A stretch of DNA of 64,000 nt from the IMG/VR virus record IMGVR_UViG_3300044643_000612, positions 1-64,000 of that record. One strand, 5' to 3'. Both the position numbers and the translations under genes were made by a program. Origin of the DNA: a virus. The notes under the pieces were generated by a model. It was not told the origin of the DNA. It made no database searches and saw only the letters and a program-made list of their open reading frames with translations. This document shows positions 49,905 through 64,000 of the stretch, one piece after another; position 1 is the first letter of the stretch, and the number at the start of each line of letters is the position of its first letter.

Positions 49905-49926
49905 GTAGGGCTCCTTGAGCGGCGAA

Positions 49927-51451: not shown

Positions 51452-51648
51452 TGCGTCCCTCGCATGTTGCGGTGGGCTTCCAGCGTCCGGCGGGCGAACG
51501 AGGCAAGCACGGTGTCAGGTAGGGCATCGGCCAGGGTGTAGAGGCTGGCAGACAGTCCGCGCCCGATGTCGCCGAACGTCTCGGCCTCCTCGATAGCGTG
51601 GATCAGGTCGGCCCGGGCAGGGATGCGCGGGGGTGGGTGGAGCATCAT
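51448..51648 (-). CDS. Hypothetical protein (66 aa)
   Basis: Two adjacent ATGs (51648, 51645) overlap the pentapeptide gene's stop. The product reads LIHAIEEAETFGDIGRGLSASLYTLADALPDTVLASFARRTLE, all helical. No family known to me. Confidence 0.55.
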   Translation of the reverse strand: MMLHPPPRIPARADLIHAIEEAETFGDIGRGLSASLYTLADALPDTVLASFARRTLEAHRNMRGTQ

Positions 51649-52346
51649 GCGCCCGCCCTCCGCTCGAAGAACTCCAGAATGTCCAGCGTCTCGCGGGCAT
51701 TAACTGTGCCGGGGTATTCGGCGGCGACGTGGGCGCGATATTCGGGGATCGTCAACCAACGACAACCGGCCATGATCTTGTGCGAGCCGTCCGTCAGTCG
51801 GAACAGGTGGAAGGTGTATCCGTCCATGCGCTCGGCGGCGGCGATAAGAGTGGCAAGAGTGTCCTCTTCGTATTTGGCATCGCGCAGGTTGGCATCGCGC
51901 AGGTTGGCACCGCGCAGGTTGGCACGGCTCAGGTAGGCACCGCGCAGGTCGGCACCGCTCAGGTCGGCACCGCGCAGGTCGGCACCGCTCAGGTTGGCAC
52001 CGCTCAGGTCGGCACCGCTCAGGTTGGCACCGCGCAGGTAGGCACCGCGCAGGTCGGCACCGCGCAGGTCGGCACCGCGCAGGTAGGCACCGCTCAGGTC
52101 GGCACCGCGCAGGTCGGCACCGCTCAGGTCGGCACCGCTCAGGTTGGCACCGCGCAGGTTGGCACCGCGCAGGTCGGCACCGCGCAGGTAGGCACCGCTC
52201 AGGTCGGCACCGCGCAGGTCGGCACCGCTCAGGTCGGCACCGCTCAGGTAGGCACCGCGCAGGTTGGCACGGCTCAGGTAGGCACCGCGCAGGGTTCCGC
52301 CGTTCGCCCATGCGACGGCGGCGAGGTAGGTTATGTGCTTGTTCAC
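51645..52346 (-). CDS. Pentapeptide repeat protein
   Basis: GTG 52346, after GGAGG and overlapping the previous stop, gives 233 residues. From about residue 17 to 150 the protein is an uninterrupted series of A(D/N/Y)L(S/R)(G/R) pentapeptides, which folds as a right-handed four-sided beta helix. The C-terminal ~80 residues (YEEDTLATLIAAAERMDGYTFHLF...EYRAHVAAEY...REFFERRAGA-like) are non-repeated. Some relatives (Qnr, MfpA) mimic DNA and bind gyrase; whether this one does is unknown. Confidence 0.85.
   Translation of the reverse strand: MNKHITYLAAVAWANGGTLRGAYLSRANLRGAYLSGADLSGADLRGADLSGAYLRGADLRGANLRGANLSGADLSGADLRGADLSGAYLRGADLRGADLRGAYLRGANLSGADLSGANLSGADLRGADLSGADLRGAYLSRANLRGANLRDANLRDAKYEEDTLATLIAAAERMDGYTFHLFRLTDGSHKIMAGCRWLTIPEYRAHVAAEYPGTVNARETLDILEFFERRAGA
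51883..52296. repeat. 15-base tandem repeat array inside the pentapeptide gene
   Basis: About 27 copies of a 15-base unit of the type GGCACCGC(G/T)CAGGT(C/T/A) vary at only two or three positions. Because 15 is a multiple of 3 and the unit lacks stops, other frames on both strands are also open; they are by-products. Confidence 0.92.
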
Positions 52347-52450
52347 AGCGCACCTCCGATAGCGGCTAGGGCAATCAGCAGCCATGCCAGCGCGGTGAAC
52401 GCGGCGGCGGTTAGGATGGCCTCTGCGGCGAGGCGGATGAGGCGGGTCAT
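52343..52450 (-). CDS. Small single-span membrane peptide (35 aa)
   Basis: ATG 52450 to the TGA overlapping the pentapeptide start. The sequence MTRLIRLAAEAILTAAAFTALAWLLIALAA... is one long hydrophobic helix with a basic N-terminus. Overlaps at both ends (ATGA, GTGA) support translation. Confidence 0.52.
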   Translation of the reverse strand: MTRLIRLAAEAILTAAAFTALAWLLIALAAIGGAL

Positions 52451-52704
52451 TGGGCGTTCTCCTTGTCGGTGGCCAAGGTCGGGATGGGGAACCAGCGAGT
52501 AGGTTCGGGGTTGGTTTCGGAGCAACATCCGCAGCCGTGAGACGGGAGGACGGCGGGATCCCAATCTTCCCACTTATCGGACGGTCGCCCGCGCCAGTCG
52601 GTCACGCGGCGGACTTGGATCCACTGCCCATCAACCTCGGCGATAACGGCGCTTAGGTCCGGAGGAGGGGGCCAGTCGGCTACGGTCGCGTGATACTCGG
52701 TCAT
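52447..52704 (-). CDS. Hypothetical protein (85 aa)
   Basis: The product has DGQWIQVRRVTDWRGRPSDKWEDWDPAVLPSHGCGCCSETNPEPTRWFPI, with a Cys-Gly-Cys-Cys cluster. Overlapping ATGA junctions on both sides. Function unknown. Confidence 0.56.
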   Translation of the reverse strand: MTEYHATVADWPPPPDLSAVIAEVDGQWIQVRRVTDWRGRPSDKWEDWDPAVLPSHGCGCCSETNPEPTRWFPIPTLATDKENAQ

Positions 52705-53078
52705 CGGTCGTTCTCCTGCGCCATGACTTCATCGGGGGCGGCCTCGGCGTATCCGAGCCACTGGAAGCTGTTGTTCACGACCTTGCTGAAGATAGCCGCC
52801 TCGCCGTCGGCACGGTTGTGTGCGAAGGCGTGCGGGGCGGCGGTCACCTCCCCGGGCGGCGAGGCGAGCGGGATCAGGGACGATAGTGCGCCGCTGCCGC
52901 CGGGCTGGCCGACGCGCAGGACGTAAAGCCGTTCACGGACGCGCGGATCCCGATAGCTTTTTATCTCATACCGCCGGCCACCATGCGTCAGGATCAGGCG
53001 GGCGGCGTCCCGCTCGGACAGGCCGGAAGCAAGCACGGTGTCGCCGTGCAGGACGGTGAAGGTCTCGGCGCGGGTCAC
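52701..53078 (-). CDS. Hypothetical protein, paralogue of the next upstream gene (125 aa)
   Basis: The N-terminal module TFTVLHGDTVLASGLSERDAARLILTHGGRRYEIKSY matches the module at the start of the 53075-53413 product (L.E.EAA.EILTH....YEIR). A C-terminal part differs. The pair suggests duplication of a small domain whose role is unknown. Confidence 0.6.
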   Translation of the reverse strand: MTRAETFTVLHGDTVLASGLSERDAARLILTHGGRRYEIKSYRDPRVRERLYVLRVGQPGGSGALSSLIPLASPPGEVTAAPHAFAHNRADGEAAIFSKVVNNSFQWLGYAEAAPDEVMAQENDR

Positions 53079-53413
53079 TCTACACCCTCCGCAGCAAGCC
53101 GGGCCTGCATCTCATCCCAATCAGCTTGTGGGATGGCCTCGGCGGTCCAGCCTAACGAGGTGTCAGCGATACGGACAACCTCGGCCAAGATTTCGACCTC
53201 GGCGGCGTCTTGTTCGGCCTCCCACGACGCAACCAGCCAAAGGCTGAAGGCGCCGTTTAGCGACTTGCCCCAAAGAGACCAACCCGCGTTGACAGGGTGT
53301 TTGCGAATCTCATACTGCGCACTGTCGTGCGTCAGGATCTCGTGGGCGGCCTCGGCCTCGGTCAAGCCCTCGGCGATGGGCTCGCCGGATCGGTCAACGA
53401 CTACGTAAAGCAT
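53075..53413 (-). CDS. Hypothetical protein, paralogous module (112 aa)
   Basis: ATG 53413 follows AGGAG and the leader hairpin at 53435. The N-terminus LYVVVDRSGEPIAEGLTEAEAAHEILTHDSAQYEIRKH is the partner of the next gene's module. The C-terminus reads LGWTAEAIPQADWDEMQARL. It begins a leftward transcript with its own promoter. Confidence 0.6.
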   Translation of the reverse strand: MLYVVVDRSGEPIAEGLTEAEAAHEILTHDSAQYEIRKHPVNAGWSLWGKSLNGAFSLWLVASWEAEQDAAEVEILAEVVRIADTSLGWTAEAIPQADWDEMQARLAAEGVE

Positions 53414-53434
53414 AATGCGGTGTCTCCTGTGAGC

Positions 53435-53449
53435 GGGCCAGGCTGGCCC
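53435..53449 (-). promoter_or_regulatory. GGCC-N5-GGCC leader hairpin (copy b)
   Basis: GGGCCAGGCTGGCCC lies 21 bases upstream of the start at 53413. It is identical to copy c at 54814. Confidence 0.6.
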
Positions 53450-53499
53450 TCCTACTGCCTCCGGCCCGCTACGCCGGAGCGCGCGGGCCTGCTGTGGCA

Positions 53500-53529
53500 A
53501 GTAAAGGCTGAACTTGTGGCGGCTGTCAA
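53500..53529 (-). promoter_or_regulatory. Leftward promoter before 53413
   Basis: TTGACA and TTTACT are separated by 18 bases on the - strand. A CTCCGG.../...CCGGAG hairpin and the leader hairpin follow before the start at 53413. The same TTGACA-x-CCGCCAC beginning recurs at 54867. Confidence 0.5.
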
Positions 53530-53900
53530 TCGGTAGCTGTGCGGGCTCGCCTGACGGCGGCGTGGGCGGCGTCCCATGCCTCGGACGCCTTGCGCGAGCG
53601 CGGCGGCTCCATAGTGTCAAGAAGATGCTTCAGGGCAGCGAGCGTGCTCGGGGCCTCTGCGATCAGGCGGGCGTCAGCTTCCGCATAGACGTTGCCGATA
53701 TGGCGGGGCGCATGTGCCGGGAGCGTCTCGCTGACGGGCGCTCCGATCATGAAGCCGAGCCACGGCGCATCGTTGCGGGTTGCAACCCAAGGGCCGGGCG
53801 TGTGTCGTGTGGCGAGTGTCAACCTGTGCGGGCCGGGGGTGTCTGCCTCGGCAGCGTTGCACAAATCCACGTCCGCGAAGTGGCCGTAACCGTAAGGCAT
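53526..53900 (-). CDS. HTPGPW-family phage protein (124 aa)
   Basis: The core RHTPGPWVATRNDAPWLGFMIGAP...GNVYAEADARLIAEAPSTLAALKHLLD is a very common small phage protein family (HTPGPW...ADA.LIAAAP...AL). A shorter relative lies at 54864-55115. Biochemical function has not been established. Confidence 0.7.
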   Translation of the reverse strand: MPYGYGHFADVDLCNAAEADTPGPHRLTLATRHTPGPWVATRNDAPWLGFMIGAPVSETLPAHAPRHIGNVYAEADARLIAEAPSTLAALKHLLDTMEPPRSRKASEAWDAAHAAVRRARTATD

Positions 53901-53905
53901 GGCGA

Positions 53906-54145
53906 TCAGGTCCTTTCGATCAGGTCAAAGCGGGCGGTCTTGCCGGAGGGGGAGAATCCCCAATCTTGAATCCGCGGGTTCTGGTAGCCCATGCGACGGG
54001 CCAAGGCGCGCACGGCGCCGGCGTGCCCCTCCTCCGCCGGGCAGATTGCCGACGGGCCGGAAACGTGGCGCGCTCGATACGTGCCGGCGCCCCATTGGCT
54101 AGCGGGCCGGTCGCGGCATACGGTGACGTTGTAGCCGTAGGTCAT
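53906..54145 (-). CDS. Hypothetical protein (79 aa)
   Basis: ATG 54145 is preferred over GTG 54154 because GGGGAG lies eight bases before it. The product TYGYNVTVCRDRPASQWGAGTYRARHVSG...AVRALARRMGYQNPRIQDWGFSPSGKTARFDLIERT is a small mixed alpha/beta protein. Not recognised. Confidence 0.55.
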   Translation of the reverse strand: MTYGYNVTVCRDRPASQWGAGTYRARHVSGPSAICPAEEGHAGAVRALARRMGYQNPRIQDWGFSPSGKTARFDLIERT

Positions 54146-54150
54146 AGCGG

Positions 54151-54540
54151 TCACTCCCCGTAGTAAAACTGTTGCGCGAAGGTAAGGACGTCTTCCCGCT
54201 CCTCATCGGTGAGCGCATACGGGGTCCAGGGCGTGCCCCAATCCTGATACTCAAGCCGGGCGGTGTCGGGCTGGGCGTCGCCGTCCAGGTCGCCTGTGAT
54301 GCGGACAGAGGGGCCGCCGAATGACAGGAGGATCTGATATTCAACCGACACGGCAACCCGAACGGGATCATGCCAGCTTGAGCGGACTTCGACCGAGAGG
54401 GGCGCTTCGTAAATGGCCTGTGCGGCGGCGTCGATATCGTCGTCTTCGACGGCGGCGCGATCGTTGGCGACAAGTTCGCGGATGGTCTCAAGCCAGGCGG
54501 TTGCGGCGTCGCGCCCGTGGTTGTCAGGGGTGGCGGTCAT
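54151..54540 (-). CDS. Hypothetical acidic protein (129 aa)
   Basis: ATG 54540 follows AGGAGAAACCCTC, a leader shared with the genes at 54793 and 55451. The product has AATAWLETIRELVANDRAAVEDDDIDAAAQAIYEAPLSVEVRSSWHDP and a C-terminal TDEEREDVLTFAQQFYYGE. A related ITETARAIYFE...EVRS pattern occurs in the 55480-55812 product. Function unknown. Confidence 0.58.
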   Translation of the reverse strand: MTATPDNHGRDAATAWLETIRELVANDRAAVEDDDIDAAAQAIYEAPLSVEVRSSWHDPVRVAVSVEYQILLSFGGPSVRITGDLDGDAQPDTARLEYQDWGTPWTPYALTDEEREDVLTFAQQFYYGE

Positions 54541-54598
54541 GAGGGTTTCTCCTGTGAGGGGGTGGCCCGGCGACCTCGCGCCGCCGGGCCGGGGGTTG

Positions 54599-54793
54599 TC
54601 AGACGTTGACGGGAGCCGCCTCTTTCGTGAGGCTTTCGGCGTGCTTCCAAGCCTTGCCGCCGGCAAGGGGGCCGTCCAGTTGGCGAAGATAGACGACGCG
54701 CCCGCTATTCGGGCCGATTCCGGTGACGGTGGCGCGGCGCGTAATGCCGTAATCTTCGTAGGTCACGCGGTCGCCGGGCTTGAAGTCAGACAT
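54599..54793 (-). CDS. Small SH3-like/KOW-type protein (64 aa)
   Basis: The sequence FKPGDRVTYEDYGITRRATVTGIGPNSGRVVYLRQLDGPLAGGKAWKHAESL looks like a small beta barrel of the kind found in nucleic-acid or protein binding SH3/KOW domains. ATG 54793 follows AGGAGAAACCCTC. Role unknown. Confidence 0.58.
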   Translation of the reverse strand: MSDFKPGDRVTYEDYGITRRATVTGIGPNSGRVVYLRQLDGPLAGGKAWKHAESLTKEAAPVNV

Positions 54794-54813
54794 GAGGGTT
54801 TCTCCTGTAGCGC

Positions 54814-54828
54814 GGGCCAGGCTGGCCC
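54814..54828 (-). promoter_or_regulatory. GGCC-N5-GGCC leader hairpin (copy c)
   Basis: GGGCCAGGCTGGCCC is 20 bases before the start at 54793. A TTGACA element lies upstream at 54867-54862, but no good -10 sits at the right distance. Confidence 0.58.
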
Positions 54829-54863
54829 TAGGGTTAAAGCGGTAACTTGTATGGTGGCGGGTG

Positions 54864-55115
54864 TCAATCGCCGGTCGCCTTGGCGATGGCGGCGCGTGCG
54901 ATAGCGAGCGCGGCGGCGGTTTGCCCGTAATCGAGCTGTTGCTCGATTCGCTCCAGGGCCGCCAGCATGTCCGGCGCGGCGGCGATCAGGTAAGCGTTGT
55001 GCGCGTCTGTATCCGCAACGAACGCGCCATGCTCGTTAACGATCAGGGGTTGCTTGCTGTAGATCGTAGTCTGGATTCGCCAAGGCCCCGGCGTGTGCTG
55101 GTGCGATGCAATCAT
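54864..55115 (-). CDS. HTPGPW-family phage protein, short form (83 aa)
   Basis: HQHTPGPWRIQTTIYSKQPLIVNEHGAFVADTDAHNAYLIAAAPDMLAALERIEQQL contains the whole family signature also seen in the 53526-53900 product. The C-terminus is a short Ala-rich helix. Function unestablished. Confidence 0.7.
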   Translation of the reverse strand: MIASHQHTPGPWRIQTTIYSKQPLIVNEHGAFVADTDAHNAYLIAAAPDMLAALERIEQQLDYGQTAAALAIARAAIAKATGD

Positions 55116-55139
55116 TGGTCAATTTCCTGTAGCTAGGCG

Positions 55140-55152
55140 GGCCAGGGTGGCC
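55140..55152 (-). promoter_or_regulatory. GGCC-N5-GGCC leader hairpin (copy d)
   Basis: GGCC-agggt-GGCC lies 24 bases before the start at 55115. A second hairpin (GCCTCCG / CGGAGGC) lies just upstream of it at about 55167-55194, in the gap after the 55227 stop. Confidence 0.5.
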
Positions 55153-55226
55153 AGCCTTCACGCCGGCGGCCTCCGCACGCTAGGCGCCGGAGGCTTTCGG
55201 GCGGGTTGTCCGCGATGGGGGCGGGG

Positions 55227-55451
55227 TTAGTCGAGGATCCCGCGCATAGCCTCGCGAATGCAGGTCAGGTTGTAGCGGGCGCCGTCGGGGGTCCGCTCGC
55301 CGGCAAGGGCGATTGCGAGGCGGGCGGCGCCGCGTTGGGCGCCGTGCTCGCGGGCGAGGTCGCGCGCCCACTGATACAAGCCTTCGTCATTGTTGAGCCA
55401 GAGCGACACGTTCCAAGCGTTCCAGCTACGGTGGCCTTGATATGCGGGCAT
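55227..55451 (-). CDS. NR/NAWNVSLW-type small phage protein (74 aa)
   Basis: ATG 55451 gives PAYQGHRSWNAWNVSLWLNNDEGLYQWARDLAREHG...GARYNLTCIREAMRGILD. The phrase (A)TWNV(S/A)LW(I/L)NNDE.LY is the hallmark of a widespread small phage protein family (I recall DUF7249). Function not known. Confidence 0.68.
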   Translation of the reverse strand: MPAYQGHRSWNAWNVSLWLNNDEGLYQWARDLAREHGAQRGAARLAIALAGERTPDGARYNLTCIREAMRGILD

Positions 55452-55479
55452 AGGGGTTTCTCCTGTGAGGGGTTGGGGG

Positions 55480-55812
55480 TCAGTCGGCGTCGCGCTCTTG
55501 GGCATAGCCGTTTGCGGCATCCCAAATCAGGTACATTTCGGCGTGTTCGACGTCGCGAAACTCTGTCTCGAAATAGATAGCGCGCGCCGTCTCGGTAATC
55601 TCGTCATCCGTTGCTAGGCGGTTCTCATACTCGCCGGCGGCGTTGCGCGCGACAATGCGAAACTCGGGGCGCAGGTGGCGCCGGACATACTCGCAAGCGG
55701 GCTCACAGTCGCCGGAGCGCGTGCAATCGAGAACGTCGGGGGCGATATCCTCCGGCACGTCGCAGAAGCTGGCGCGCGGCTCGCGGGGGCAGATTTCGAT
55801 AATGAGGGGCAT
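55480..55812 (-). CDS. Hypothetical protein (110 aa)
   Basis: The first gene of the leftward accessory operon. The sequence MPLIIEICPREPRASFCDVPEDIAPDVLDCTRSGDCEPACEYVRRHLRP contains four Cys that could bind metal; the C-terminus DEITETARAIYFETEFRDVEHAEMYLIWDAANGYAQERDAD is acidic and helical. GGAGA precedes ATG 55812. Not recognised. Confidence 0.6.
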   Translation of the reverse strand: MPLIIEICPREPRASFCDVPEDIAPDVLDCTRSGDCEPACEYVRRHLRPEFRIVARNAAGEYENRLATDDEITETARAIYFETEFRDVEHAEMYLIWDAANGYAQERDAD

Positions 55813-55837
55813 GTTGCCGGTCTCCAGGACGGGGGCG

Positions 55838-55851
55838 GGCCGCTATTGGCC
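55838..55851 (-). promoter_or_regulatory. GGCC-N6-GGCC leader hairpin (copy e)
   Basis: The stem extends to GCGGGCC / GGCCCGC (55835-55854), 25 bases before the start at 55812 and about 20 bases after the -10 of the promoter at 55873, so it would be the 5' end of the mRNA. Confidence 0.58.
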
Positions 55852-55872
55852 CGCGCTCCCCGTCTGAATCGA

Positions 55873-55901
55873 TATATAAGGGAAGGCTAAAAAGTGGTCA
55901 A
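55873..55901 (-). promoter_or_regulatory. Strong leftward early promoter
   Basis: On the - strand TTGACC and TATATA are separated by exactly 17 bases, in a notably AT-rich patch. It is the best leftward promoter in the window and would drive the accessory operon starting at 55812. Confidence 0.8.
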
Positions 55902-56030
55902 GCGTTCAATTGCACCTTTTACGAGTTAAAGCGGATTGTTATCCTTCGCAACGTGCAACGCGACGCATCATGATGCATCGTGTTGCATGTGTTGCAGCGC
56001 CCCTGAAATGCAGCACCACATGCAACACGA

Positions 56031-56061
56031 GGGGGGCCCTATACGTAGTATAGGCCCCTCC
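56031..56061. repeat. Large inverted repeat in the control region
   Basis: The 7-bp arms CCTATAC / GTATAGG around GTA extend, after one mismatch, by six more pairs (GGGGGG with CCCTCC, including one G-T). A 14-position stem of this size in a gene-free control region suggests a protein-binding palindrome or transcription terminator between divergent units. Confidence 0.7.
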
Positions 56062-56090
56062 GTGATGCGTGATGCATTTGGCGCTGCGTC

Positions 56091-56114
56091 GCGTTGCACG
56101 CTGCGTTGCACGCT
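56091..56114. repeat. Two tandem copies of GCGTTGCACGCT
   Basis: The 12-base unit is repeated exactly, followed by GC. Each copy contains GTTGCA, the word scattered in the preceding 140 bases, so the pair may be iteron-like binding sites. Confidence 0.75.
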
Positions 56115-56250
56115 GCAAAGCCTTTAACTGTCTGTTAGTAGGCGCTGAGACGGTGGCCAGGATGGCGGTTAGTCGGAGGCTGTTAGGTCCGGTTAGCCTT
56201 CTATCGGATAGCAGGTCGCGGCGCCCTTCGCACATATAGGCGCCCGCGCA

Positions 56251-56279
56251 TTGACGCCAGGCCGGTCGGCGGGTATAAC
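56251..56279 (+). promoter_or_regulatory. Strong rightward promoter before terS
   Basis: TTGACG and TATAAC are spaced by exactly 17 bases and lie 32 bases before the start of the small terminase gene. It allows independent expression of terS away from the terL operon. Confidence 0.8.
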
Positions 56280-56310
56280 ACTCGGCTGTAATCCGAAAGG
56301 GATTTGACGC

Positions 56311-56808
56311 ATGGCAGTCAACGGCGTTGGGCGCCCGCACTCGTTTCGGGTGGAAGTTGGCGACGCGATTTGTGAGCGGCTGGTTAATGGCGAGTCGCTA
56401 AGGGCGATTTGCCGGGATCCTGAAATGCCGACCGTTGGCGTTGTGCTAAGGTGGGTAGCTGAGGGGGACGTCCCGGCGGATGAAAGCGGGAAGGGGCTGA
56501 GCGATGCACATACCGCTCTCCGCCGATTCCGCGAACAATACCTGCGCGCTCGCCAGGAACAGGCCGACGTGTTGGCGGATGAGATTATCGACATTGCCGA
56601 TCGCGCCACGGATCCGCAGCTTGCCCGCCTCCAAATCGATTCTCGCAAGTGGTATGCCGGCAAGGTGCGTCCGAAGGTCTATGGCGAGGGCATTGCGCTA
56701 AGGCATACTGGCGCCGACGGATCCGGCGCCGTCCAGGTCGACGTCAACGCCAAATCGGCCCTTGTCGACGGGATCCTAGACGCCATGAAAAAGGCGCCCG
56801 GCGGTTAA
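56311..56808 (+). CDS. terS: Terminase small subunit
   Basis: The 165-residue protein reads GRPHSFRVEVGDAICERLVNGESLRAICRDPEMPTVGVVLRWV (HTH of Sf6/phage TerS), then FREQYLRARQEQADVLADEIIDIADRATDPQLARLQIDSRKWYAGKVRPKVYGEGIALRHTG, the standard TerS oligomerisation part. It recognises packaging sites and feeds DNA to TerL. It is remote from terL here and stands alone on the + strand within leftward accessory genes. A terminator stem contains its stop codon. Confidence 0.87.
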   Translation: MAVNGVGRPHSFRVEVGDAICERLVNGESLRAICRDPEMPTVGVVLRWVAEGDVPADESGKGLSDAHTALRRFREQYLRARQEQADVLADEIIDIADRATDPQLARLQIDSRKWYAGKVRPKVYGEGIALRHTGADGSGAVQVDVNAKSALVDGILDAMKKAPGG

Positions 56809-56818
56809 GCCGGGCGCC
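56793..56818 (-). terminator. Terminator for the leftward gene, overlapping the terS stop
   Basis: A 10-bp perfect stem GGCGCCCGGC / GCCGGGCGCC encloses a 6-base loop containing the TAA of terS. On the - strand it is followed by TTTTT, so it is a canonical terminator for the 56851-57300 transcript. It may also stop rightward terS transcripts, with a weaker tail. Confidence 0.82.
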
Positions 56819-56850
56819 CCTTGGCGCGACCTGCTAGGCCAGGCTAGGCC

Positions 56851-57300
56851 CTAGTCTTCGTCGCCGGCCCGGTAGTCCCGCTCCCTCTCGGCGGCATACT
56901 CCGCCGCACAATGCGCGGCGCTGGCGGCGCTTTCCGCGTCGGGATAGACCTCCGGCTCCAATGTCCCGCACATGTTCGCCCCCATGGTCCATCCCGCGAG
57001 GAAGCCGCGGCCAGATGGAAGCCGCGCGATAATCGGCTCTAACGTCGTGTCTTGGTAGTCGTCGGCATAGTAGCCAGACACATAGCGGCGCCGGTCCTGT
57101 ATGTGGTCGTTCGCGTCTTCGAGTCGCAGGGCAAGGGAAGAGCCGCGAGGATCCATCGTCAGGGCGTGCGCGCCGCTATAGAAGCCGCGGCCCTTGCCCG
57201 GCGCTGACGGGCGCCACCTGTAGGGTCCAACATAGCGCCGCGCCGTTTTGCGGTCCGCAAGCGGGCGCCCGTAGTCTAGCAAGGTGATTGTGTCGAACAT
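56851..57300 (-). CDS. Conserved phage hypothetical protein (149 aa)
   Basis: FDTITLLDYGRPLADRKTARRYVG...AHALTMDPRGSSLALRLEDANDHIQ...PIIARLPSGRGFLAGWTMGANMCGTLEPEVYPDAESAASAAHCAAEYAAERERDY. The phrase (L)AGWTMG.(N)M..TL...(V)Y.D...AA..AD..AE..AE.ER(D/E)Y is familiar from many phages; no function is known. GGAGAC precedes ATG 57300. Confidence 0.65.
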   Translation of the reverse strand: MFDTITLLDYGRPLADRKTARRYVGPYRWRPSAPGKGRGFYSGAHALTMDPRGSSLALRLEDANDHIQDRRRYVSGYYADDYQDTTLEPIIARLPSGRGFLAGWTMGANMCGTLEPEVYPDAESAASAAHCAAEYAAERERDYRAGDED

Positions 57301-57321
57301 GCTCTGTCTCCAATGTAGCTA

Positions 57322-57334
57322 GGCCACGTCGGCC
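57322..57334 (-). promoter_or_regulatory. GGCC-N5-GGCC leader hairpin (copy f)
   Basis: GGCC-acgtc-GGCC, 21 bases before the start at 57300. The block CTAGGCCACGTCGGCCCTAC is identical to copy g at 57953. Confidence 0.6.
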
Positions 57335-57404
57335 CTACGCCAAAGGGACCGCACGCGCGTGGCGCCGGTCCCGATAGGCGGTCTGCCCGCTATGTGCGGC
57401 GCTG

Positions 57405-57641
57405 CTAGGCGTAGGGCGTGGCAAGAGCCTCTTCTAGCGTCGGGCGCCATGGTGCCGCCTCGTCAACGAATGACCAAGCCTCCGCTTCCTCGCATTCCAT
57501 ATCTAGCCAACACAGTGCGAAGCCTTCGGCGCGACGAATAACGAACGCGCCATCCGCGCATTGCGTCCCCTCAGACGGGACCGCAACCACAGTTGCCTGA
57601 AGCCCATTGGCATACTCTATCTCTTGTCCCGTGCGATACAT
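57405..57641 (-). CDS. Hypothetical protein (78 aa)
   Basis: ATG 57641 overlaps the upstream TAA. The product YRTGQEIEYANGLQATVVAVPSEGTQCADGAFVIRRAEGFALCWLDMECEEAEAWSFVDEAAP looks like a small beta barrel with an acidic end. Not recognised. Confidence 0.58.
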   Translation of the reverse strand: MYRTGQEIEYANGLQATVVAVPSEGTQCADGAFVIRRAEGFALCWLDMECEEAEAWSFVDEAAPWRPTLEEALATPYA

Positions 57642-57931
57642 TATGCGCGCCCTCCGGTCATTTCCCGCCACGCTTGCCAAGCGCGATTCCAAGTGTCCAT
57701 ATCCGACTCCGCTTGCTCGTCACACTCAGGAAACTCCCTGCCCGTGACGCGCTGATAGGCGTCAAGCATTGTCATGTTCGCATCGCAGAAATCGTGCGAG
57801 GCGCAAGCGCAAGCGTAGTCAGGTCGCAAATTCCGGCGCCGGACCTCGGCATAATTGAAAGCGCCAATGTCGAGGCGCAATTGGACATCAAACGCTTTGG
57901 CCAGGGCTTGTTCTGTTTCGGTGTAGGTCAT
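57641..57931 (-). CDS. Conserved phage hypothetical protein (96 aa)
   Basis: The protein has YACACASHDFCDANMTMLDAYQRVTGREFPECDEQAESDMDTWNRAWQAWREM. The C-x-C...HDFCDANM..M..A....G segment occurs in small proteins of many phages, as I recall. Two Cys-rich turns may hold metal. Function unknown. Confidence 0.62.
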   Translation of the reverse strand: MTYTETEQALAKAFDVQLRLDIGAFNYAEVRRRNLRPDYACACASHDFCDANMTMLDAYQRVTGREFPECDEQAESDMDTWNRAWQAWREMTGGRA

Positions 57932-57954
57932 GGCGTCATGCTCCCGTCTATCTA

Positions 57955-57967
57955 GGCCACGTCGGCC
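57955..57967 (-). promoter_or_regulatory. GGCC-N5-GGCC leader hairpin (copy g)
   Basis: GGCC-acgtc-GGCC, 23 bases before the start at 57931; the same 20-base block as copy f. Confidence 0.6.
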
Positions 57968-58131
57968 CTACGCCATAGGCTCATATCCTAGCCGCCGACG
58001 CAAGCGATTAGTTGCGCCGCACCTATGCGGCGGATTGTCGCACCTAGCTAAGGGGAAGCTACTCTTTATAAATGCACGCAAGGCGGGCGCCCGGCGCCGC
58101 ACGTGCGACACTATGCCGCGGCGACTAAGGC

Positions 58132-58160
58132 TTGACGCCATGGGCCGGCTGGCCTAGGAT
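58132..58160 (+). promoter_or_regulatory. Rightward promoter with GGCC palindrome in the spacer
   Basis: TTGACG and TAGGAT are spaced by 17 bases. The spacer contains GGCC-GGCT-GGCC, the same half-sites as the leader hairpins, here positioned like an operator between -35 and -10. It would drive the small-gene operon from 58286. Confidence 0.72.
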
Positions 58161-58285
58161 CCTCTGGCGTGTAGGGCCTTTGGCCCGGACCCCTATACCC
58201 CACCTGGGAACAGCGGTCTGGTGCTGGCATGGCCAGAGATAATTTTTGCAACAGCCCACCCTCAAAGGGCTAACAAGGAGACAAC

Positions 58286-58522
58286 ATGATAGATACTACG
58301 TTCATCAGCATGACGCCCGAAGGCATACGCACGGCGCTGGCCGTCATTCCGGACAGCGACCGCCTCACCCTCGTGAAGGGCGAGGGGTTTGACGCCTGGC
58401 GCGCGGACACCACCCCCGTGTCGCTCGTGTTCGGCGAGCCCACCGTGCCGAAGCGCGACGCCGACATGGCAGCCCTCGTCGAGCACATCCGCGCATGGCT
58501 CGACGGCAAGGAGACGCCGTGA
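58286..58522 (+). CDS. Hypothetical protein (78 aa)
   Basis: First gene of the rightward small-gene operon, with AAGGAGA before ATG 58286. The product has DSDRLTLVKGEGFDAWRADTTPVSLVFGEPTVPKRDADMAALVEHIRAWLDG. No domain is recognised. It is coupled to the next gene by TGATG. Confidence 0.6.
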   Translation: MIDTTFISMTPEGIRTALAVIPDSDRLTLVKGEGFDAWRADTTPVSLVFGEPTVPKRDADMAALVEHIRAWLDGKETP

Positions 58523-58995
58523 TGCCTGACGTCCCCGACGACTACTGGCTCCGCCGCGCCGGCGTGCTCACCGAGGAGGACGACGCCGGGTGGATCCCGC
58601 ACGACGGCGGTTCGTGCCCGGTGCCCTCGGGCACGCACGTCGTCCTACGGCGCCAAGACGGCAAGGAGTTAGCAGGACCCGCGGGCCGCTTTGGGTGGCA
58701 GTGGGGCGTGGAGCTTTGCGAGGACTGCGACATCGCCGCCTACCGCGTCCTCGACAGCGAGCAGCCCGCCTCCCCCAAGCCCACCCCGCCCAACGCCCAC
58801 TACCGCCAGGGCGACATCGAGTGCATCGACGCGATCCGCGCAGCCCTGACCGACGAGGAGTGGCGCGGCTATTGCAAGGGCAACGTGCTGAAGTACGTCT
58901 GGCGCGAGAAGCACAAGGGCGGCAACGAGACCCTCGTCAAGGCGCAGGACTACCTGCGCTGGGCGGTGGCGGGCAAGGCGGAGGGCAAGCGATGA
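58522..58995 (+). CDS. DUF3310 protein (157 aa)
   Basis: ATG 58522. The C-terminal ~60 residues HYRQGDIECIDAIRAALTDEEWRGYCKGNVLKYVWREKHKGGNETLVKAQDYLRWAV are a typical DUF3310 domain, found alone or fused in many phages (sometimes called nucleotide kinase-like). The N-terminal half (GTHVVLRRQDGKELAGPAGRFGWQW...DIAAYRV) is a separate small beta domain. Enzymatic role unproven. Confidence 0.8.
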   Translation: MPDVPDDYWLRRAGVLTEEDDAGWIPHDGGSCPVPSGTHVVLRRQDGKELAGPAGRFGWQWGVELCEDCDIAAYRVLDSEQPASPKPTPPNAHYRQGDIECIDAIRAALTDEEWRGYCKGNVLKYVWREKHKGGNETLVKAQDYLRWAVAGKAEGKR

Positions 58996-59210
58996 AGCTG
59001 TCTGAAATCCTGCTCACGATCGCCTTCTTTCCCGCCGGGGCGGCCTTCATCGCGTGGCTTTTGGTCGAGGCGGCCTTCGCGTGGAGGCTTGTTTGGCCCC
59101 GGCTGTTCACTTGCGGGCGGTTGAACTCCGACGGCTGGATGGCTGTCGCGATGCTCGCGACCCTCGCGCTTGCTGTGCTGGGCGCCACCCTTCGACACTT
59201 TGGGGCCTAA
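58992..59210 (+). CDS. Two-span membrane protein (72 aa)
   Basis: ATGA overlap with the DUF3310 gene. Hydrophobic helices at about 5-30 (ILLTIAFFPAGAAFIAWLLVEAAFAW) and 48-66 (WMAVAMLATLALAVLGATL). Function unknown. Confidence 0.6.
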   Translation: MKLSEILLTIAFFPAGAAFIAWLLVEAAFAWRLVWPRLFTCGRLNSDGWMAVAMLATLALAVLGATLRHFGA

Positions 59211-59213
59211 CCC

Positions 59214-59294
59214 ATGACCGACCGCAACTGGCCAATGGTGGCCGGTTACGCACCTTTGAGGCCGACAAGTGGCCTGGAGAGACAACATGACTGA
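59214..59294 (+). CDS. Possible 26-residue peptide
   Basis: ATG 59214 opens a short frame (MTDRNWPMVAGYAPLRPTSG...) ending inside the next gene, with only GGGG as a weak ribosome site. It may be a leader or remnant. Weak support. Confidence 0.25.
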   Translation: MTDRNWPMVAGYAPLRPTSGLERQHD

Positions 59295-59625
59295 ATGGAT
59301 CAAGCACGACGGCGGACCCCAGCCGGTCGCGGATGATGTGTGGGTAGAGTGCGCTCCCTTCACAGGGGGTCAGGCCGAGGCTCTCAAGGCCGGTGTTGAT
59401 CCGAGCCTGTGGAATTACAAGTTTTTCTACCGCATCCTCAACCAGCACCTGATCGACGCCGCCCGCATAGAAGGCATCCGGGATGGGCTAGAGGCTGCAC
59501 ATATGGCCATTGGCAAGGAACTGAACGACAAGACGCCATTGGAAGTGGCCGCTACAATTATGCGGGCGGAGATAACGATTGTGGAACTAGACCCCGAGAC
59601 CATCGCAAAGGAGACTGCACGATGA
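59287..59625 (+). CDS. Hypothetical protein (112 aa)
   Basis: ATG 59287 after GGAGAG. The start TEWIKHDGGPQPVADDVWVECAPFTGGQAEALKAGVDPSLWNY resembles small phage proteins with W-(I/V)-x-H-(D/N)-GG.(P)V...(V)...(F/R).G; the C-terminal part is helical. Function unknown. Confidence 0.62.
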   Translation: MTEWIKHDGGPQPVADDVWVECAPFTGGQAEALKAGVDPSLWNYKFFYRILNQHLIDAARIEGIRDGLEAAHMAIGKELNDKTPLEVAATIMRAEITIVELDPETIAKETAR

Positions 59626-60089
59626 CTGAACCCGACGAGGCCCTGCTATGGGCGAGGGGGCAAACCGACGCACCCAGCCTACACCTTGTGTTGGGGCAAA
59701 CCGAGACACCCGGCCTACACCTTATTATGGCCCACGGCTACCGCGCCGGGCAGGCCGCATCCGCCGAGAGGATCAAGGCGCTGGAGGAGGCTCTGGCGAA
59801 GGCGAACAAGCCCGAATGGTTCTATGGCGACCATGAGGCGTCTCCCGCCGACTCTGTGGATGAAGTCATTGAGGAAGCCCTTGAATGGGGCCTTCTCGGA
59901 GAGGCGGAACCGGGCCACATAGAAGTGTTTCAGATCAACACGGCCCGCCCCTGCGCAACCGTTTGGGCCGTTGTTCGCATTCTCACAGTGGATGAGCGCG
60001 AGGCCCGCGACGACGGCTTTCTGTTTGACGTGACGGAGTGCGCCACGGAAGCCGAAGCCGAGGCCCTGCTCAAGGAGGCTGACCAGTGA
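59622..60089 (+). CDS. Hypothetical protein ending LLKEADQ (155 aa)
   Basis: ATG 59622 overlaps the previous stop. A near-duplicated N-terminal phrase (GQTDAPSLHLVLGQTETPGLHLIM) suggests internal duplication. Then a short coiled coil (SAERIKALEEALAKANKPEW) and a C-terminal alpha/beta part. The last codons are part of the repeated junction CAAGGAGGCTGACCAGTGA that also supplies the next gene's ribosome site and GTG. Confidence 0.58.
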   Translation: MTEPDEALLWARGQTDAPSLHLVLGQTETPGLHLIMAHGYRAGQAASAERIKALEEALAKANKPEWFYGDHEASPADSVDEVIEEALEWGLLGEAEPGHIEVFQINTARPCATVWAVVRILTVDEREARDDGFLFDVTECATEAEAEALLKEADQ

Positions 60090-60349
60090 GTGATGATATT
60101 TTTGACCGGGCGCTGGATCGACGGAATGCCCTTATTAAAGAGCAACGCCGCAGGATCAAGGCGCTGGAGGAGGCTTTGCGGGGGCTGGCAAGCGCATCCA
60201 CTGAGAGGATCGGGGCGCTGGAGGAGGCGTTGCGGGAAGTGATCGAAGATTACGATTGGGTCCAAGGCGGACCCGGTGATCGAGATTGGAACGTCCTCGA
60301 CAACACCATAATTCGCGCCCGCAATCTGCTCAAGGAGGCTGACCAGTGA
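60086..60349 (+). CDS. Small coiled-coil protein ending LLKEADQ (87 aa)
   Basis: GTG 60086 after AAGGAGG. SDDIFDRALDRRNALIKEQRRRIKALEEALRGLASASTERIGALEEALREVIEDY is a heptad coiled coil with two ALEEAL units. The end RNLLKEADQ is shared with the preceding gene. Function unknown. Confidence 0.55.
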   Translation: MSDDIFDRALDRRNALIKEQRRRIKALEEALRGLASASTERIGALEEALREVIEDYDWVQGGPGDRDWNVLDNTIIRARNLLKEADQ

Positions 60350-60525
60350 AGATTTCTATTCGTCTCTCACAAACAGCACTGCCGATAACGATTAACAATG
60401 TAGTCAACACCAACACCAAGGGGCTATTCTACTGCGTTTATACAGAAGACGGAATCGTTCGGAAGTTTCCAATAATAACAATCTTCGACGTAACTGAGGG
60501 TTACAAGGAGGCTGCCAGTGAGTGA
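60346..60525 (+). CDS. Small hypothetical protein (59 aa)
   Basis: GTG 60346 in the GTGA junction. The product KISIRLSQTALPITINNVV...GLFYCVYTEDGIVRKFPIITIFDVTEGYKEAASE is beta rich; its DNA is clearly AT-richer than the surrounding genes, a sign of a recently acquired cassette. Both flanks are junction repeats. Confidence 0.52.
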   Translation: MKISIRLSQTALPITINNVVNTNTKGLFYCVYTEDGIVRKFPIITIFDVTEGYKEAASE

Positions 60526-60664
60526 CGATGAACGCATTGAGGCACTGGAGGAGGAACTGGCTGTCGCGCTTATGCAAGTGAGCCTGTGGGCGCAGGCGCG
60601 GAGATATCAAATCGGCGGAATACCGACTACCGACGCCTTCCGGGCCCCGCGCTCTGCTCAATGA
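60518..60664 (+). CDS. Small protein (48 aa), possibly truncated
   Basis: GTG 60518. It begins SDDERIEALEEELAVALMQVSLWAQARR, like the gene at 60086. It ends at TGA 60662-60664, where a one-base change converts the junction AAGGAGG to AATGAGG and removes the usual KEADQ ending. It may be a decayed member of the series. Confidence 0.42.
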   Translation: MSDDERIEALEEELAVALMQVSLWAQARRYQIGGIPTTDAFRAPRSAQ

Positions 60665-60673
60665 GGCTGACCA

Positions 60674-61024
60674 GTGAACAGCGCGAACTTAAGGATGGCG
60701 GTTATCACTTACAACGCCACGCTTCTTAACCAGTCACAGGACAGTCGCGACCAACCCGCCGCTATGCGCGCCGCGCTTGCCCCGTTTCTTGAGCGCATCA
60801 AGCAACTAGAGGGCGAAAACGCAGAGTTAAAAGATTGGCGACGCAGGGCCGAAAAGATGATGTCCGTCATGAAGGCAAATGCAATCGACAACATCAACTC
60901 TCGGGCGCGGCCCCTGACCGGATTTGTTTCCACCTTGACCGCAGAACAGAAGGAAGCGGCGATGTCGTATGAAGGTGACGACCACCACGGACCCGAGACC
61001 ACCGCCAAGGAGGCTGACCAGTGA
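60674..61024 (+). CDS. Hypothetical protein ending KEADQ (116 aa)
   Basis: GTG 60674. An N-terminal helix region and coiled coil (ALAPFLERIKQLEGENAELKDWRRRAEKMMSVMKANAID) precede an acidic His-containing tail (GDDHHGPETTAKEADQ). The ribosome site upstream is the mutated junction copy. Function unknown. Confidence 0.52.
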   Translation: MNSANLRMAVITYNATLLNQSQDSRDQPAAMRAALAPFLERIKQLEGENAELKDWRRRAEKMMSVMKANAIDNINSRARPLTGFVSTLTAEQKEAAMSYEGDDHHGPETTAKEADQ

Positions 61025-61046
61025 GGCTAATGGTTGGGCGCACGAC
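61025..61046 (+). repeat. 22-base direct repeat, left copy
   Basis: Identical to 61409-61430 and contains the first codons (ATGGTTGGGCGCACGAC) of the GcrA-like gene. The two copies flank a 384-base unit that carries the two small genes between them. Confidence 0.9.
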
Positions 61047-61068
61047 ACGAAAGGACCCTTGGTCATGA
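61030..61068 (+). pseudogene. 5' remnant of a GcrA-like gene
   Basis: ATG 61030 starts MVGRTT, the same six codons as the intact GcrA-like gene at 61414, but runs into RKDPWS and a stop after 12 residues. It sits right after a junction repeat with a good ribosome site, where the original gene start probably was before the cassette 61047-61430 was inserted. Confidence 0.5.
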
Positions 61069-61244
61069 TGATTTCTCAAGAGACCTGCCTGCTGCTCATG
61101 CTCGTTATCGGCATGATATCTACTCTGGGTTTTCAATGGTGGCCTGACTGGACAAAAGTGCAGCGGCGGCTGTCCATCTTGTGGATTGTGTTCTGGCTTG
61201 GCCCGCCTCTGTATTTCGTCTGGACCAAAGGAGTGCTGGGATGA
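61065..61244 (+). CDS. Small two-span membrane protein (59 aa)
   Basis: ATG 61065 (a second ATG follows at 61068). Hydrophobic segments at about 8-24 (CLLLMLVIGMISTLGF) and 37-53 (LSILWIVFWLGPPLYFVW) flank a short WWPDWTKVQRR loop. The last part is identical to window bases 1-86. Function unknown. Confidence 0.6.
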   Translation: MMISQETCLLLMLVIGMISTLGFQWWPDWTKVQRRLSILWIVFWLGPPLYFVWTKGVLG

Positions 61245-61285
61245 CCTATCCGCCCGAACTGCAAGCCTACTACGACGCCCACGAC
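61159..61285. repeat. 127-base exact repeat, copy 2
   Basis: Identical to bases 1-127. Downstream the two contexts diverge completely: methyltransferase and terL after copy 1, a second replication module after copy 2. Confidence 0.95.
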
Positions 61286-61414
61286 CGAATGATGAATCAG
61301 GAGCGGACCGCAGATCAATTGGCGTGGTGGCCTGTCCAATACGGCTACTACAAGGTCGCCCGATACAACGCTGTCAAGGCTGGCTATCTGCCCGAGACGC
61401 CGGAGTTTGGCTAA
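61241..61414 (+). CDS. Small conserved hypothetical protein (57 aa), second copy
   Basis: Homologue of the gene at 83-256, same length. The first 15 codons are identical, then RMMNQERTADQLAWWPVQYGYYKVARYNAVKAGYLPETPEFG. ATG 61241 overlaps the upstream stop. Function unknown. Confidence 0.68.
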   Translation: MTYPPELQAYYDAHDRMMNQERTADQLAWWPVQYGYYKVARYNAVKAGYLPETPEFG

Positions 61415-61430
61415 TGGTTGGGCGCACGAC
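61409..61430 (+). repeat. 22-base direct repeat, right copy
   Basis: Right-hand partner of 61025-61046. It spans the end of the small gene and the start of the intact GcrA-like gene. Confidence 0.9.
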
Positions 61431-61608
61431 GTGGACGGAAGAACAGCACGCTAAGGTGGTGGAGCTGTGGGAGGCGGGGCATACCGCTGCCGAGATAGGT
61501 AAAGAGATGGGCAAGACCCGGAACGCCATCCTCGGACACGTTAACCGGAGAGGTATTAGCCGTAACGGAGCCCTCCAGTCGTGGTGGAGGAAGCCGGATG
61601 AAGGTTAA
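61414..61608 (+). CDS. GcrA-like DNA-binding protein, short form (64 aa)
   Basis: TTWTEEQHAKVVELWEAGHTAAEIGKEMGKTRNAILGHVNRRGISRNGA is the GcrA N-terminal HTH; the Cys-containing C-terminal domain present in the 40599-41039 homologue is missing. The short form could bind GcrA sites without contacting sigma70. ATG overlaps the previous stop (TAATG). Confidence 0.76.
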   Translation: MVGRTTWTEEQHAKVVELWEAGHTAAEIGKEMGKTRNAILGHVNRRGISRNGALQSWWRKPDEG

Positions 61609-61846
61609 GGAGGTTCACGCCGGGAGACTGTACCGGGTAAAAAAGACTAAACTTAGCGAGTATGATTTCGTAAAGGGCGGCGGACATCTGTGGGTAGCAG
61701 AAGAGTCTGGAAACCTAATGTCGGGGAACGTTTACGTCGCAAAGGCCTACTTGTTTCGTTCTGTGGCTACTGGAGTAGTCATTCGCGCGAACGGAATACT
61801 TTTTGACTCTCTTGGGCTGGAGGAAGCCGATGGCGGCGACACCTGA
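61598..61846 (+). CDS. Hypothetical protein (82 aa)
   Basis: The start overlaps the GcrA-like gene by 11 bases. KVKEVHAGRLYRVKKTKLSEYDFVKGGGHLWVAEESGNLMSGNVYVAKAYLFRSVATGVVIRANGILFDSL looks like a small beta barrel. It ends inside the VRR-NUC gene. AT-richer codon use than the main genome. Not recognised. Confidence 0.56.
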   Translation: MKVKEVHAGRLYRVKKTKLSEYDFVKGGGHLWVAEESGNLMSGNVYVAKAYLFRSVATGVVIRANGILFDSLGLEEADGGDT

Positions 61847-62138
61847 GAAGAAGGTTAAGGCCCGGGTGGAGGCCATGCTCAAGGCGAAGGGGGTTTACTA
61901 TTTCTTCCCGGCTACGCATGGTTACGGGCGGAGCGGAGTCCCTGACATCATCGCCTGCGACCGGGGACGGTTCCTCGCCATAGAGTGCAAGGCTGCGGGG
62001 GGTAAGCTTACGGCGCTACAGGAGCGGGAGATTACCCGTATTAGAGTAGAAGGCGGCGTGGCACTCGTCATCCACGAAGACAACTTCCACGAGTTAGAGC
62101 AAGCGTTAGAGCAAGCGCTGGAGTATACATGCCTTTAA
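61830..62138 (+). CDS. VRR-NUC domain nuclease, second copy
   Basis: ATG 61830 after GGAGGA gives 102 residues: EKKVKARVEAMLKAKGVYYFFPATHGYGRSGVPDIIACDRGRFLAIECKAAGGKLTALQ. The PD...ExK core is present. It is clearly diverged from the copy at 41023 and lies, like it, beside GcrA-like and polymerase genes. Confidence 0.85.
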   Translation: MAATPEKKVKARVEAMLKAKGVYYFFPATHGYGRSGVPDIIACDRGRFLAIECKAAGGKLTALQEREITRIRVEGGVALVIHEDNFHELEQALEQALEYTCL

Positions 62139-64000
62139 TTGTCTGCGATTTCGAAACATATTACGACTCCGACTTCAGCCTGTCTAAGATGACGACGGAG
62201 GAATACATCCGAAGTCCTCGGTTTGAGGTGATCGGCGTAAGTGTAAAGGTGGATAGCGAGCCGCCCCGGTGGTTCTCCGGTACCATGCCTGACATTCAGA
62301 AGTGGCTCCTGCGCTTCCCGTGGGAAACCTCCATCGCCGTGGCGCACAACGCTGCCTTCGACATGGCCATCCTGAACTGGAGTTTTGGCATTATCCCGGC
62401 GAGGATCGCGGACACGCTCTCTATGGCTAGGGCGATAGACGGACCGGATGCAGGCAACAGCCTCGCCAAGCTGGCAGAGCGCCACGGTCTCGGGGCCAAG
62501 GGCAACGAGGTTATCAACGCGCTAGGCAAACGCCGACTGGATTTCTCCACGGCACAGCTGGCGGCTTACGGCGAGTACTGCTGCAACGACGCCGACCTGA
62601 CCTACGACCTGTTCCAGAAGCAAGTGGCGGGCTTCCCGCTAAGCGAGCTCCGGGTGATCGACCTAACCATACGCATGTTCACCGAGCCGGTACTGCGACT
62701 GAGCCAACCGGTGTTGGACGGCCACCTCACTGAGGTGCTGGACCGCAAGGCGAAACTTCTCGATGGGTTAGGCGTCTCCACCGAAGCCCTTATGAGCAAC
62801 GACAAGCTGGCTAAGGTCCTTGCAGACCTAGGTGTGGAGCCCCCGACTAAGACCAGCCCCACCACGGGCAAAGTGGCTTGGGCCTTCGCTAAGAACGACG
62901 AGGGGTTTAAGGCCCTACTGGAACATGAGGACGAGCGCGTCCAAGCCATTGTGGCTGCGCGGCTAGGGATCAAGTCCACGTTGGAGGAGACCCGGACCGA
63001 GCGGTTCATCGACATCTCCAAGCGCGGGACCCTGCCCGTACCCCTACGCTACTACGCAGCTCACACGGGGCGCTGGGGTGGCGACGACAAGATCAACCTC
63101 CAGAACCTGCCGCGCAAATCCCCACTCAAGAAATCCATGCGCGCGCCCAAGGGGTTCCTGTTGGTGGACTGCGACTCCAGCCAGATTGAAGCGCGGACCC
63201 TAGCTTGGCTGGCCGGACAAGACGACCTTGTCCAGTTCTTCGAGAAGAACAACGCCGAGATCGCGGCGGGCGTTGCCAAGGCGGACATGCAGTTCGACCC
63301 CTACAAGATCATGGCCTCCGGCATCTACGGGGTACCTGTGTCGGAGGTGACGGACGACATGCGCTTCGTAGGCAAGACAACTATACTGGGTTGTATTGCC
63401 GAGGGAACCCCGGTACTAACTGATCGCGGCTGGGTAGCGATTGAGGAGGTAACTACCTCTGACCGGCTGTGGGACGGAGAGGAGTGGGTATGCCACCAAG
63501 GGCTAGTGCAGAAAGGCACCAAAGAAACGTTGAGTCTTTGCGGGCTTTGGTTGACGCCGGATCACAAAGTGTTGTGCGGGACCCAGTGGCTGCAAGCGCA
63601 CTCAGTGGTTCAAGACAGAAATACCCTCTCCCAAGCGTTGGATACAGGAGCGGTCAGCTGGTTGTGTCCGGATACGTCAAAGGGCCAAGGAGAGGGGTAC
63701 TATCCATCATCGTGCGGTGCGACTGCGGGTTCCCAGAATACACCGTTGATAGGCACAACTTCAAGGACTTCAAAAGCACCCGATGCCCCCTCTGCGGTAG
63801 ACGGGAAGGACACCGAAAACGTTATTGGAAGTATATATCGGCGCTCCCCGACACTGCGCACCGAGAGCGACTGCTCAACCGACTATCGGCTGCTATCAGC
63901 CGCTGCCACGCACCCAATAACCGGATGTACGCAGACTACGGAGGTAGGGGTATCGCAGTATACAAACAGTGGAGAGCTGACCGCGCCGAGTTCCTACGGT
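62129..64000 (+). CDS. polA: Second family A DNA polymerase with an intein (runs off window)
   Basis: ATG 62129 opens a frame with no stop to the window end. The first 421 residues are polymerase: exonuclease VCDFETYYD, AHNAAFDMA, YCCNDADLTY; polymerase RYYAAHTGRWGGDDKINLQNLPR and motif A LLVDCDSSQIEART. It is then interrupted after RFVGKTTILG by an intein starting at Cys (63392), just before the expected GYGMG of motif B. The intein site differs from that in the 41350-44511 polymerase. Motifs B and C lie beyond the window. Confidence 0.87.
   Translation, partial: MPLIVCDFETYYDSDFSLSKMTTEEYIRSPRFEVIGVSVKVDSEPPRWFSGTMPDIQKWLLRFPWETSIAVAHNAAFDMAILNWSFGIIPARIADTLSMARAIDGPDAGNSLAKLAERHGLGAKGNEVINALGKRRLDFSTAQLAAYGEYCCNDADLTYDLFQKQVAGFPLSELRVIDLTIRMFTEPVLRLSQPVLDGHLTEVLDRKAKLLDGLGVSTEALMSNDKLAKVLADLGVEPPTKTSPTTGKVAWAFAKNDEGFKALLEHEDERVQAIVAARLGIKSTLEETRTERFIDISKRGTLPVPLRYYAAHTGRWGGDDKINLQNLPRKSPLKKSMRAPKGFLLVDCDSSQIEARTLAWLAGQDDLVQFFEKNNAEIAAGVAKADMQFDPYKIMASGIYGVPVSEVTDDMRFVGKTTILGCIAEGTPVLTDRGWVAIEEVTTSDRLWDGEEWVCHQGLVQKGTKETLSLCGLWLTPDHKVLCGTQWLQAHSVVQDRNTLSQALDTGAVSWLCPDTSKGQGEGYYPSSCGATAGSQNTPLIGTTSRTSKAPDAPSAVDGKDTENVIGSIYRRSPTLRTESDCSTDYRLLSAAATHPITGCTQTTEVGVSQYTNSGELTAPSSYG
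63392..64000 (+). other. Intein in the second polymerase (incomplete)
   Basis: Block A: CIAEGTPVLTDRGWVAIEEV, then TTSDRLWDGEEWV; block B: LCGLWLTPDHKVLCG with Thr-x-x-His. It is clearly related to the split N-intein at 43279. After about residue 90 the frame stays open for more than 110 codons but becomes Ser/Thr-rich and unlike a Hint or LAGLIDADG domain, exactly where an HNH-like protein is encoded in another frame. Confidence 0.8.
63490..64000 (+). CDS. HNH/zinc-ribbon-type homing endonuclease overlapping the intein out of frame
   Basis: ATG 63490 opens a frame, shifted relative to the polymerase, that is open for 170 codons to the window end. It encodes GQLVVSGYVKGPRRGVLSIIVRCDCGFPEY...STRCPLCG (CxCG and CxxCG zinc ribbon) and then RLLNRLSAAISRCHAPNNRMYADYGGRGIAVYKQW, the ...RC..P....Y..YGGRGI.V...W block of phage homing endonucleases. 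The C-terminal catalytic part is off the window. The true start could be a later GTG (63586 or 63664). Confidence 0.68.
   Translation, partial: MPPRASAERHQRNVESLRALVDAGSQSVVRDPVAASALSGSRQKYPLPSVGYRSGQLVVSGYVKGPRRGVLSIIVRCDCGFPEYTVDRHNFKDFKSTRCPLCGRREGHRKRYWKYISALPDTAHRERLLNRLSAAISRCHAPNNRMYADYGGRGIAVYKQWRADRAEFLR

Follow-up and report, generated by a model that had tools for sequence, protein, structure and literature searches.

Does the genome behind an 84,337-base IMG/VR virus record (IMGVR_UViG_3300044643_000612) truly carry two replication modules, each with its own family A DNA polymerase, or does the record run from one phage into another? The window analyzed here is the first 64,000 bases of that record, base 1 of the window being base 1 of the record. 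A first-pass annotation had seen that the opening 127 bases recur near the end of the window, just ahead of the second module, and had suggested that a circular phage genome of about 61158 bases was joined in assembly to a related phage at a shared 127-mer. We find this suggestion well supported by a contig that closes the circle, by a second contig collinear with the tail of the record, and by the placement of the 127 bases at the record's start; the record is, with a high degree of confidence, a chimeric metagenomic contig composed of a complete phage A (1-61158) and a partial, distantly related phage B (61286-84337). The features on which the argument turns are collected in Table 1.

Table 1. 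Features of the window that bear on the join (coordinates are those of the window)
Positions	Strand	Feature	Basis or remark
1..127	+	First copy of 127-base exact repeat	Starts at record base 1
1..61158	.	Phage A, complete circular map; content: DNA methyltransferase, terminase, portal, head, tail, helicase, split PolA, primase/helicase, pentapeptide-repeat gene	Independent contig, PHROGs, Caulobacter phage RW homologues
83..256	+	57-codon gene, phage A version, complete	ORF comparison
40599..41039	-	GcrA-like protein, phage A	Pfam
41023..41349	-	VRR-NUC, phage A	Pfam
41350..42573	-	Phage A polymerase, C-terminal part preceded by C-intein-like stretch	Pfam PF00476
42395..43312	-	GIY-YIG endonuclease ORF between polymerase parts, phage A	Pfam PF01541, E 4.5e-5
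43279..44511	-	Phage A polymerase, N-terminal part ending N-intein-like	Sequence comparison
60969..61244	+	91-aa ORF of phage A	3' end forms first part of 127-mer
61159..61285	+	Second copy of 127-base repeat, probable branch vertex of assembly graph	True continuation is base 128 (phage A)
61241..61414	+	57-codon gene, apparent A/B hybrid	First 15 codons identical to A, remainder different
61286..64000	+	Phage B fragment start, continues to record base 84337	Collinearity with IMGVR_UViG_3300028430_000211; GC
61414..61608	+	GcrA-like protein, phage B	Pfam PF07750, E 8.5e-9
61803..62138	+	VRR-NUC/Hjc-like nuclease, phage B	Pfam: VRR_NUC just below, Hjc above gathering score
62129..64000	+	Family A DNA polymerase, phage B	Pfam PF00476; ends at record 64837

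The repeat itself proved exact when checked: bases 1-127 equal 61159-61285, identity ends at base 128/61286, and chance is out of the question as the source of an exact 127-mer within 64 kb. The further claim that the contexts differ after the repeat holds in that divergence sets in at 128/61286, but it needs correction for the stretch that follows, where the two copies remain alignable to about base 252 (84.8% identity in a local alignment of 257 columns that includes the repeat; beyond the 127, 76 of 125 positions agree without gaps). Since both copies enter one and the same 57-codon gene, the two contexts are homologous at first rather than unrelated. In phage A, this small gene is followed by a cytosine-5 DNA methyltransferase.

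That base 1 follows base 61158, as had been proposed, is established by an independent contig of 61,309 bases from another metagenome (IMGVR_UViG_3300034018_000646), which was found by means of an exact pattern inside the repeat and the portal gene. Lying in the opposite orientation, it runs from 51869 to 61158, passes directly to base 1 and ends at 52019, with no interruption. It is 100% identical to the window over the 9,290 compared bases of 51869-61158 and 99.985% identical over 1-52019, with eight mismatches, the first of them at 20094 (20,093 identical bases precede it); the sequence following 61285 is absent from it, except for the contig's own copy of the small gene. Its ends overlap by 151 bases with one mismatch, both lying in the 15-base array of a pentapeptide-repeat gene. 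Each of the two contigs thus spans the break of the other; combined, they close into a circular map of 61,158 bases, which is a map only, compatible alike with a permuted packaged molecule and with repeated ends. The gene neighborhood from 61158 to 1 is also kept in several relatives that are about 90% identical.

Of the eight mismatches that separate phage A from the independent contig, seven cluster at 20094-20601, inside the ORF at 19779-21125. The 15-base array (51771-52398) belongs to the pentapeptide-repeat gene at 51645-52385 on the minus strand, and the independent contig breaks exactly there; a 375-base deletion distinguishes the pentapeptide gene of GB2A, which belongs to the RW group (PMC11053796). 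We also considered whether the 127-base repeat might reflect a linear genome with terminal redundancy and rejected this, as the ends of the record share nothing and the second copy is internal.

Pfam confirms that GcrA-like, VRR-NUC and PolA genes are encoded at 61414-64000 and have counterparts at 40599-44511, although VRR-NUC falls just under the gathering score in both modules. The pairs are indeed diverged, with the polymerases, nucleases and helicases of the two modules showing roughly 26-41% protein identity over their matching stretches, and the order differs as well: Pol, VRR-NUC, GcrA, helicase in phage A, and GcrA, VRR-NUC, Pol, then helicase in phage B. The description of two complete family A polymerases does not stand, however, for the first of them (41350-44511) is split into two ORFs around a GIY-YIG ORF; the phage B PolA extends past the window, to 64837.

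The presence of GcrA-like, VRR-NUC-like, PolA and helicase genes in both parts is what one would expect of a real large phage with an internally duplicated replication module, a reading to which we give almost no credence. The low identity together with the different order argues against duplication within one phage, and the pairs, which differ in orientation and insertions as well, are not recent copies; a tandem duplication or recent copy of the module was rejected on these grounds. The second part is, moreover, collinear with a separate phage that has packaging and head genes of its own, and the independent phage A contig contains the first set of replication genes only, so that the 61,158-base circle without the second module refutes the duplication in practice.

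This separate phage is represented by a contig of 51,156 bases (IMGVR_UViG_3300028430_000211), whose bases 628-23141 match bases 61240-84337 of the record in the same order and at 73-89% identity, the main difference being an in-frame insertion in the phage B polymerase. The other half of that contig, which has no counterpart in the record, carries a terminase large subunit, a portal-like protein and major head proteins (PHROGs), with about 30-40% identity to those of phage A; no second polymerase match was found in that half. Because the collinear contig has these genes, phage B is to be regarded as a separate lineage with its own packaging and head genes, and the earlier suggestion that the segment after 61285 comes from another phage is upheld. 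An exact search of IMG/VR for the phage B sequence just past the join gave no match. Relatives of the phage B 947-aa protein beyond that in the 51-kb contig reach at most 62% identity, and no second phage B contig was found in IMG/VR, so that the upstream neighbor of phage B is known only through a relative at 73-89% DNA identity. A phage B protein of 2316 aa, encoded on the minus strand at record positions 74112-81062 (locus L005:9775-16725), has a match in DarB-like antirestriction proteins (PHROG 10089) that covers the C-terminal 800 residues.

The composition of the record changes in the same region: GC falls from 0.656 (1-61158) to 0.599 (61286-84337), with a switch in tetranucleotide usage around the join. 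A boundary placed by GC alone would be misleading: the last 1.2 kb or so before the join (60-61.2 kb) is already AT-richer, yet the independent contig shows this stretch to be phage A.

What the two phages share at the join may be quite limited. In phage A, in phage B and in the phage B relative alike, the last 45 bases of the 127-mer (61241-61285) form the conserved beginning of the small gene, whereas the first 82 consist of the end of the 91-aa gene of phage A plus the bases following it and are typical of the A lineage. The proteins of the two versions of the 57-codon gene are 68% identical, the figure given for the protein of the B relative also being 68%. In the B relative, other sequence and a different gene stand upstream of the small gene. 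Homologues of the 91-aa ORF (46-47%) were found only in relatives of phage A (L094, L096, L097, L098 and L103), with none among the B relatives compared; in all of these except L098, contigs about 89-92% identical to phage A, the homologue is followed, some hundreds of bases on, by the region that is homologous to the window from 1496 onward. Judged from these alignments, the true homology of A and B at the join may be confined to the 45-base start of the shared small gene, and since the 82 bases upstream are typical of the phage A lineage, phage B need not carry the whole 127-mer.

It is conceivable, though we consider it doubtful, that phage B truly bears a phage A stretch of 127 bases or more, which covers the last part of the 91-aa gene together with the beginning of the small gene and was acquired by recent exchange, and that this sharing prompted the mis-join. 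Two genomes that meet at a vertex sharing the 127-mer would be the simplest reading of k=127 (PMC10914622), but the length of the vertex is no evidence of real sharing where a false link arose at a smaller k, the B relative has its different gene upstream of the small gene, the 91-aa gene is confined to relatives of phage A, and comparison of the two parts gave no other long identical stretch between them. A start resembling that of the phage B GcrA gene (GGCTAATGGTTGGGCGCACGAC, 61404-61439) occurs also in phage A at 61020-61055, in the first part of the 91-aa ORF; it may be left over from an exchange of genes between the lineages.

The repeat length suggests how a chimeric record could have been produced. 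With k=127, the de Bruijn graph would fork where the repeat ends at 61285, one continuation being base 128 (phage A) and the other base 61286 (phage B). An assembler that started at this branch vertex, went around phage A once, returned and left along phage B would take the other exit after a full circle, so that the vertex would be printed twice, once at the start of the contig; the record was, we infer, assembled with k=127 along such a path. The branch would have arisen either because B carries an A-like stretch or from the common start of the small gene (61241-61285) combined with a false link that came from chimeric reads or was formed at a smaller k; under both readings the record is most probably a chimera. 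Where contigs of metaSPAdes and MEGAHIT break at a branching point, their ends carry sequences of length maxK; the metaSPAdes settings used in the same study include k=127 (PMC10914622). A repeat of 127 bases, a usual maximum k, standing at the record's first base is what a graph break at k=127 leaves behind. As in the breaks with maxK overlap that the COBRA paper describes (PMC10914622), the repeat has the usual maximum k as its length and stands at the start of the record and at the boundary of two genomes; unlike them, the assembler here would have passed through the vertex into the wrong genome rather than stopping. The COBRA authors state that their tool can neither fix nor detect such chimeras (PMC10914622). 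Three marks of a chimera are found together: a repeat of the usual maximum k at a contig end, one continuation that alone occurs in independent data, and sides that come from different genomes.

A genuine recombinant molecule or population, in which a complete Riverwalkvirus-like phage A was fused to the replication region of B by a crossover in the 57-codon gene (perhaps a rare product of co-infection caught by the assembler), would account for a junction that lies inside a gene of both lineages, where the strongly conserved first 45 bases are just where a homologous crossover would occur. Nevertheless, we hold it to be very improbable. A stable genome of this kind would measure 84 kb or more and contain two polymerases and two helicases, whereas the larger contigs among the relatives of either lineage reach about 51-68 kb; phage A occurs intact and without B in another metagenome; and a repeat of this length, with the record beginning at its first base, fits a graph vertex and would otherwise have to be a coincidence.

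The polymerases of both phages, now read as belonging to separate genomes, carry intein-like insertions. In phage A the final stretch of the N-terminal part begins CLAEGTLV and is N-intein-like, and the C-terminal part is preceded by a C-intein-like stretch (TYDIVNAGPRNRFMANGRIVSN). Splicing of the two halves may be supposed from these motifs, and no intein profile matched the split polymerase. The relative L132 has the same split arrangement, its halves being 77% and 79% identical to those of phage A, and in L131, from a contig 91% identical over the C-terminal part, the polymerase is uninterrupted. The in-frame insertion of the phage B polymerase comprises about 281 residues (record positions about 63392-64237), begins CIAEGTPV, ends HN before C, and is absent from the relative L010. 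An insertion of similar appearance (CIAKFTPV...VHNC) lies at a further, different site in the polymerase of Caulobacter phage RW (compare locus L006:24420-27302), so that intein-like insertions occupy three different positions in three related phage polymerases. The terminase large subunit of phage A (1920-4493) also contains an insertion, of about 360 residues (about 2110-3200), which has a LAGLIDADG/Hom_end domain and interrupts the Walker A motif (AGRGYGK...HNTRVGAEW). Among the relatives, L094, L096, L097 and L103 have this insertion and L091, L092, L093, L098, L099 and L100 lack it, a presence/absence polymorphism that is typical of an intein.

Phage A shares with Caulobacter phage RW its terminase, portal, GroES-like and head genes in the same order, at 43-83% protein identity, and polymerase, helicase and primase/helicase are also common to it and the RW group (RW, RLK, KcrB and GB2A). 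Its size (61,158) is similar to that of RW (62,362 including repeated ends, about nine genes being repeated at the ends of the deposited RW record). It differs from the group in many tail and early genes without a match and in the site of the polymerase insertion. The four phages of the RW group make up the proposed genus Riverwalkvirus, for which the genus rule is at least 70% genome-wide DNA similarity (PMC11053796); about 43% of the first 8 kb of phage A aligns with the group, at 72.5%, and as judged on those 8 kb phage A falls short of the 70% rule. By these comparisons phage A is a distant relative of Caulobacter phage RW, of the proposed Riverwalkvirus. Phage B has homologues of its Pol, helicase and 947-aa primase-like protein in Pseudomonas phage Rollin (OR577172, 61,282 bases) at 27-42% protein identity, with the nuclease gene of Rollin located elsewhere, and when the B part of the window was compared with GenBank phages at the DNA level, a single short match turned up, in Rollin. 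Far closer is the 51-kb contig, collinear with phage B over 23 kb and without the polymerase insertion.

The record should therefore be split at 61158/61286 into a complete phage genome of 61,158 bases and a separate phage fragment. Left uncorrected, it would imply a phage with two polymerases and inflate genome size and gene content in databases. The same test for chimeras, one relative that closes the circle and one that is collinear with the tail end, is cheap to apply elsewhere. The second module is not a duplication, and the assembled sequence matters mainly as a corrupted database record.
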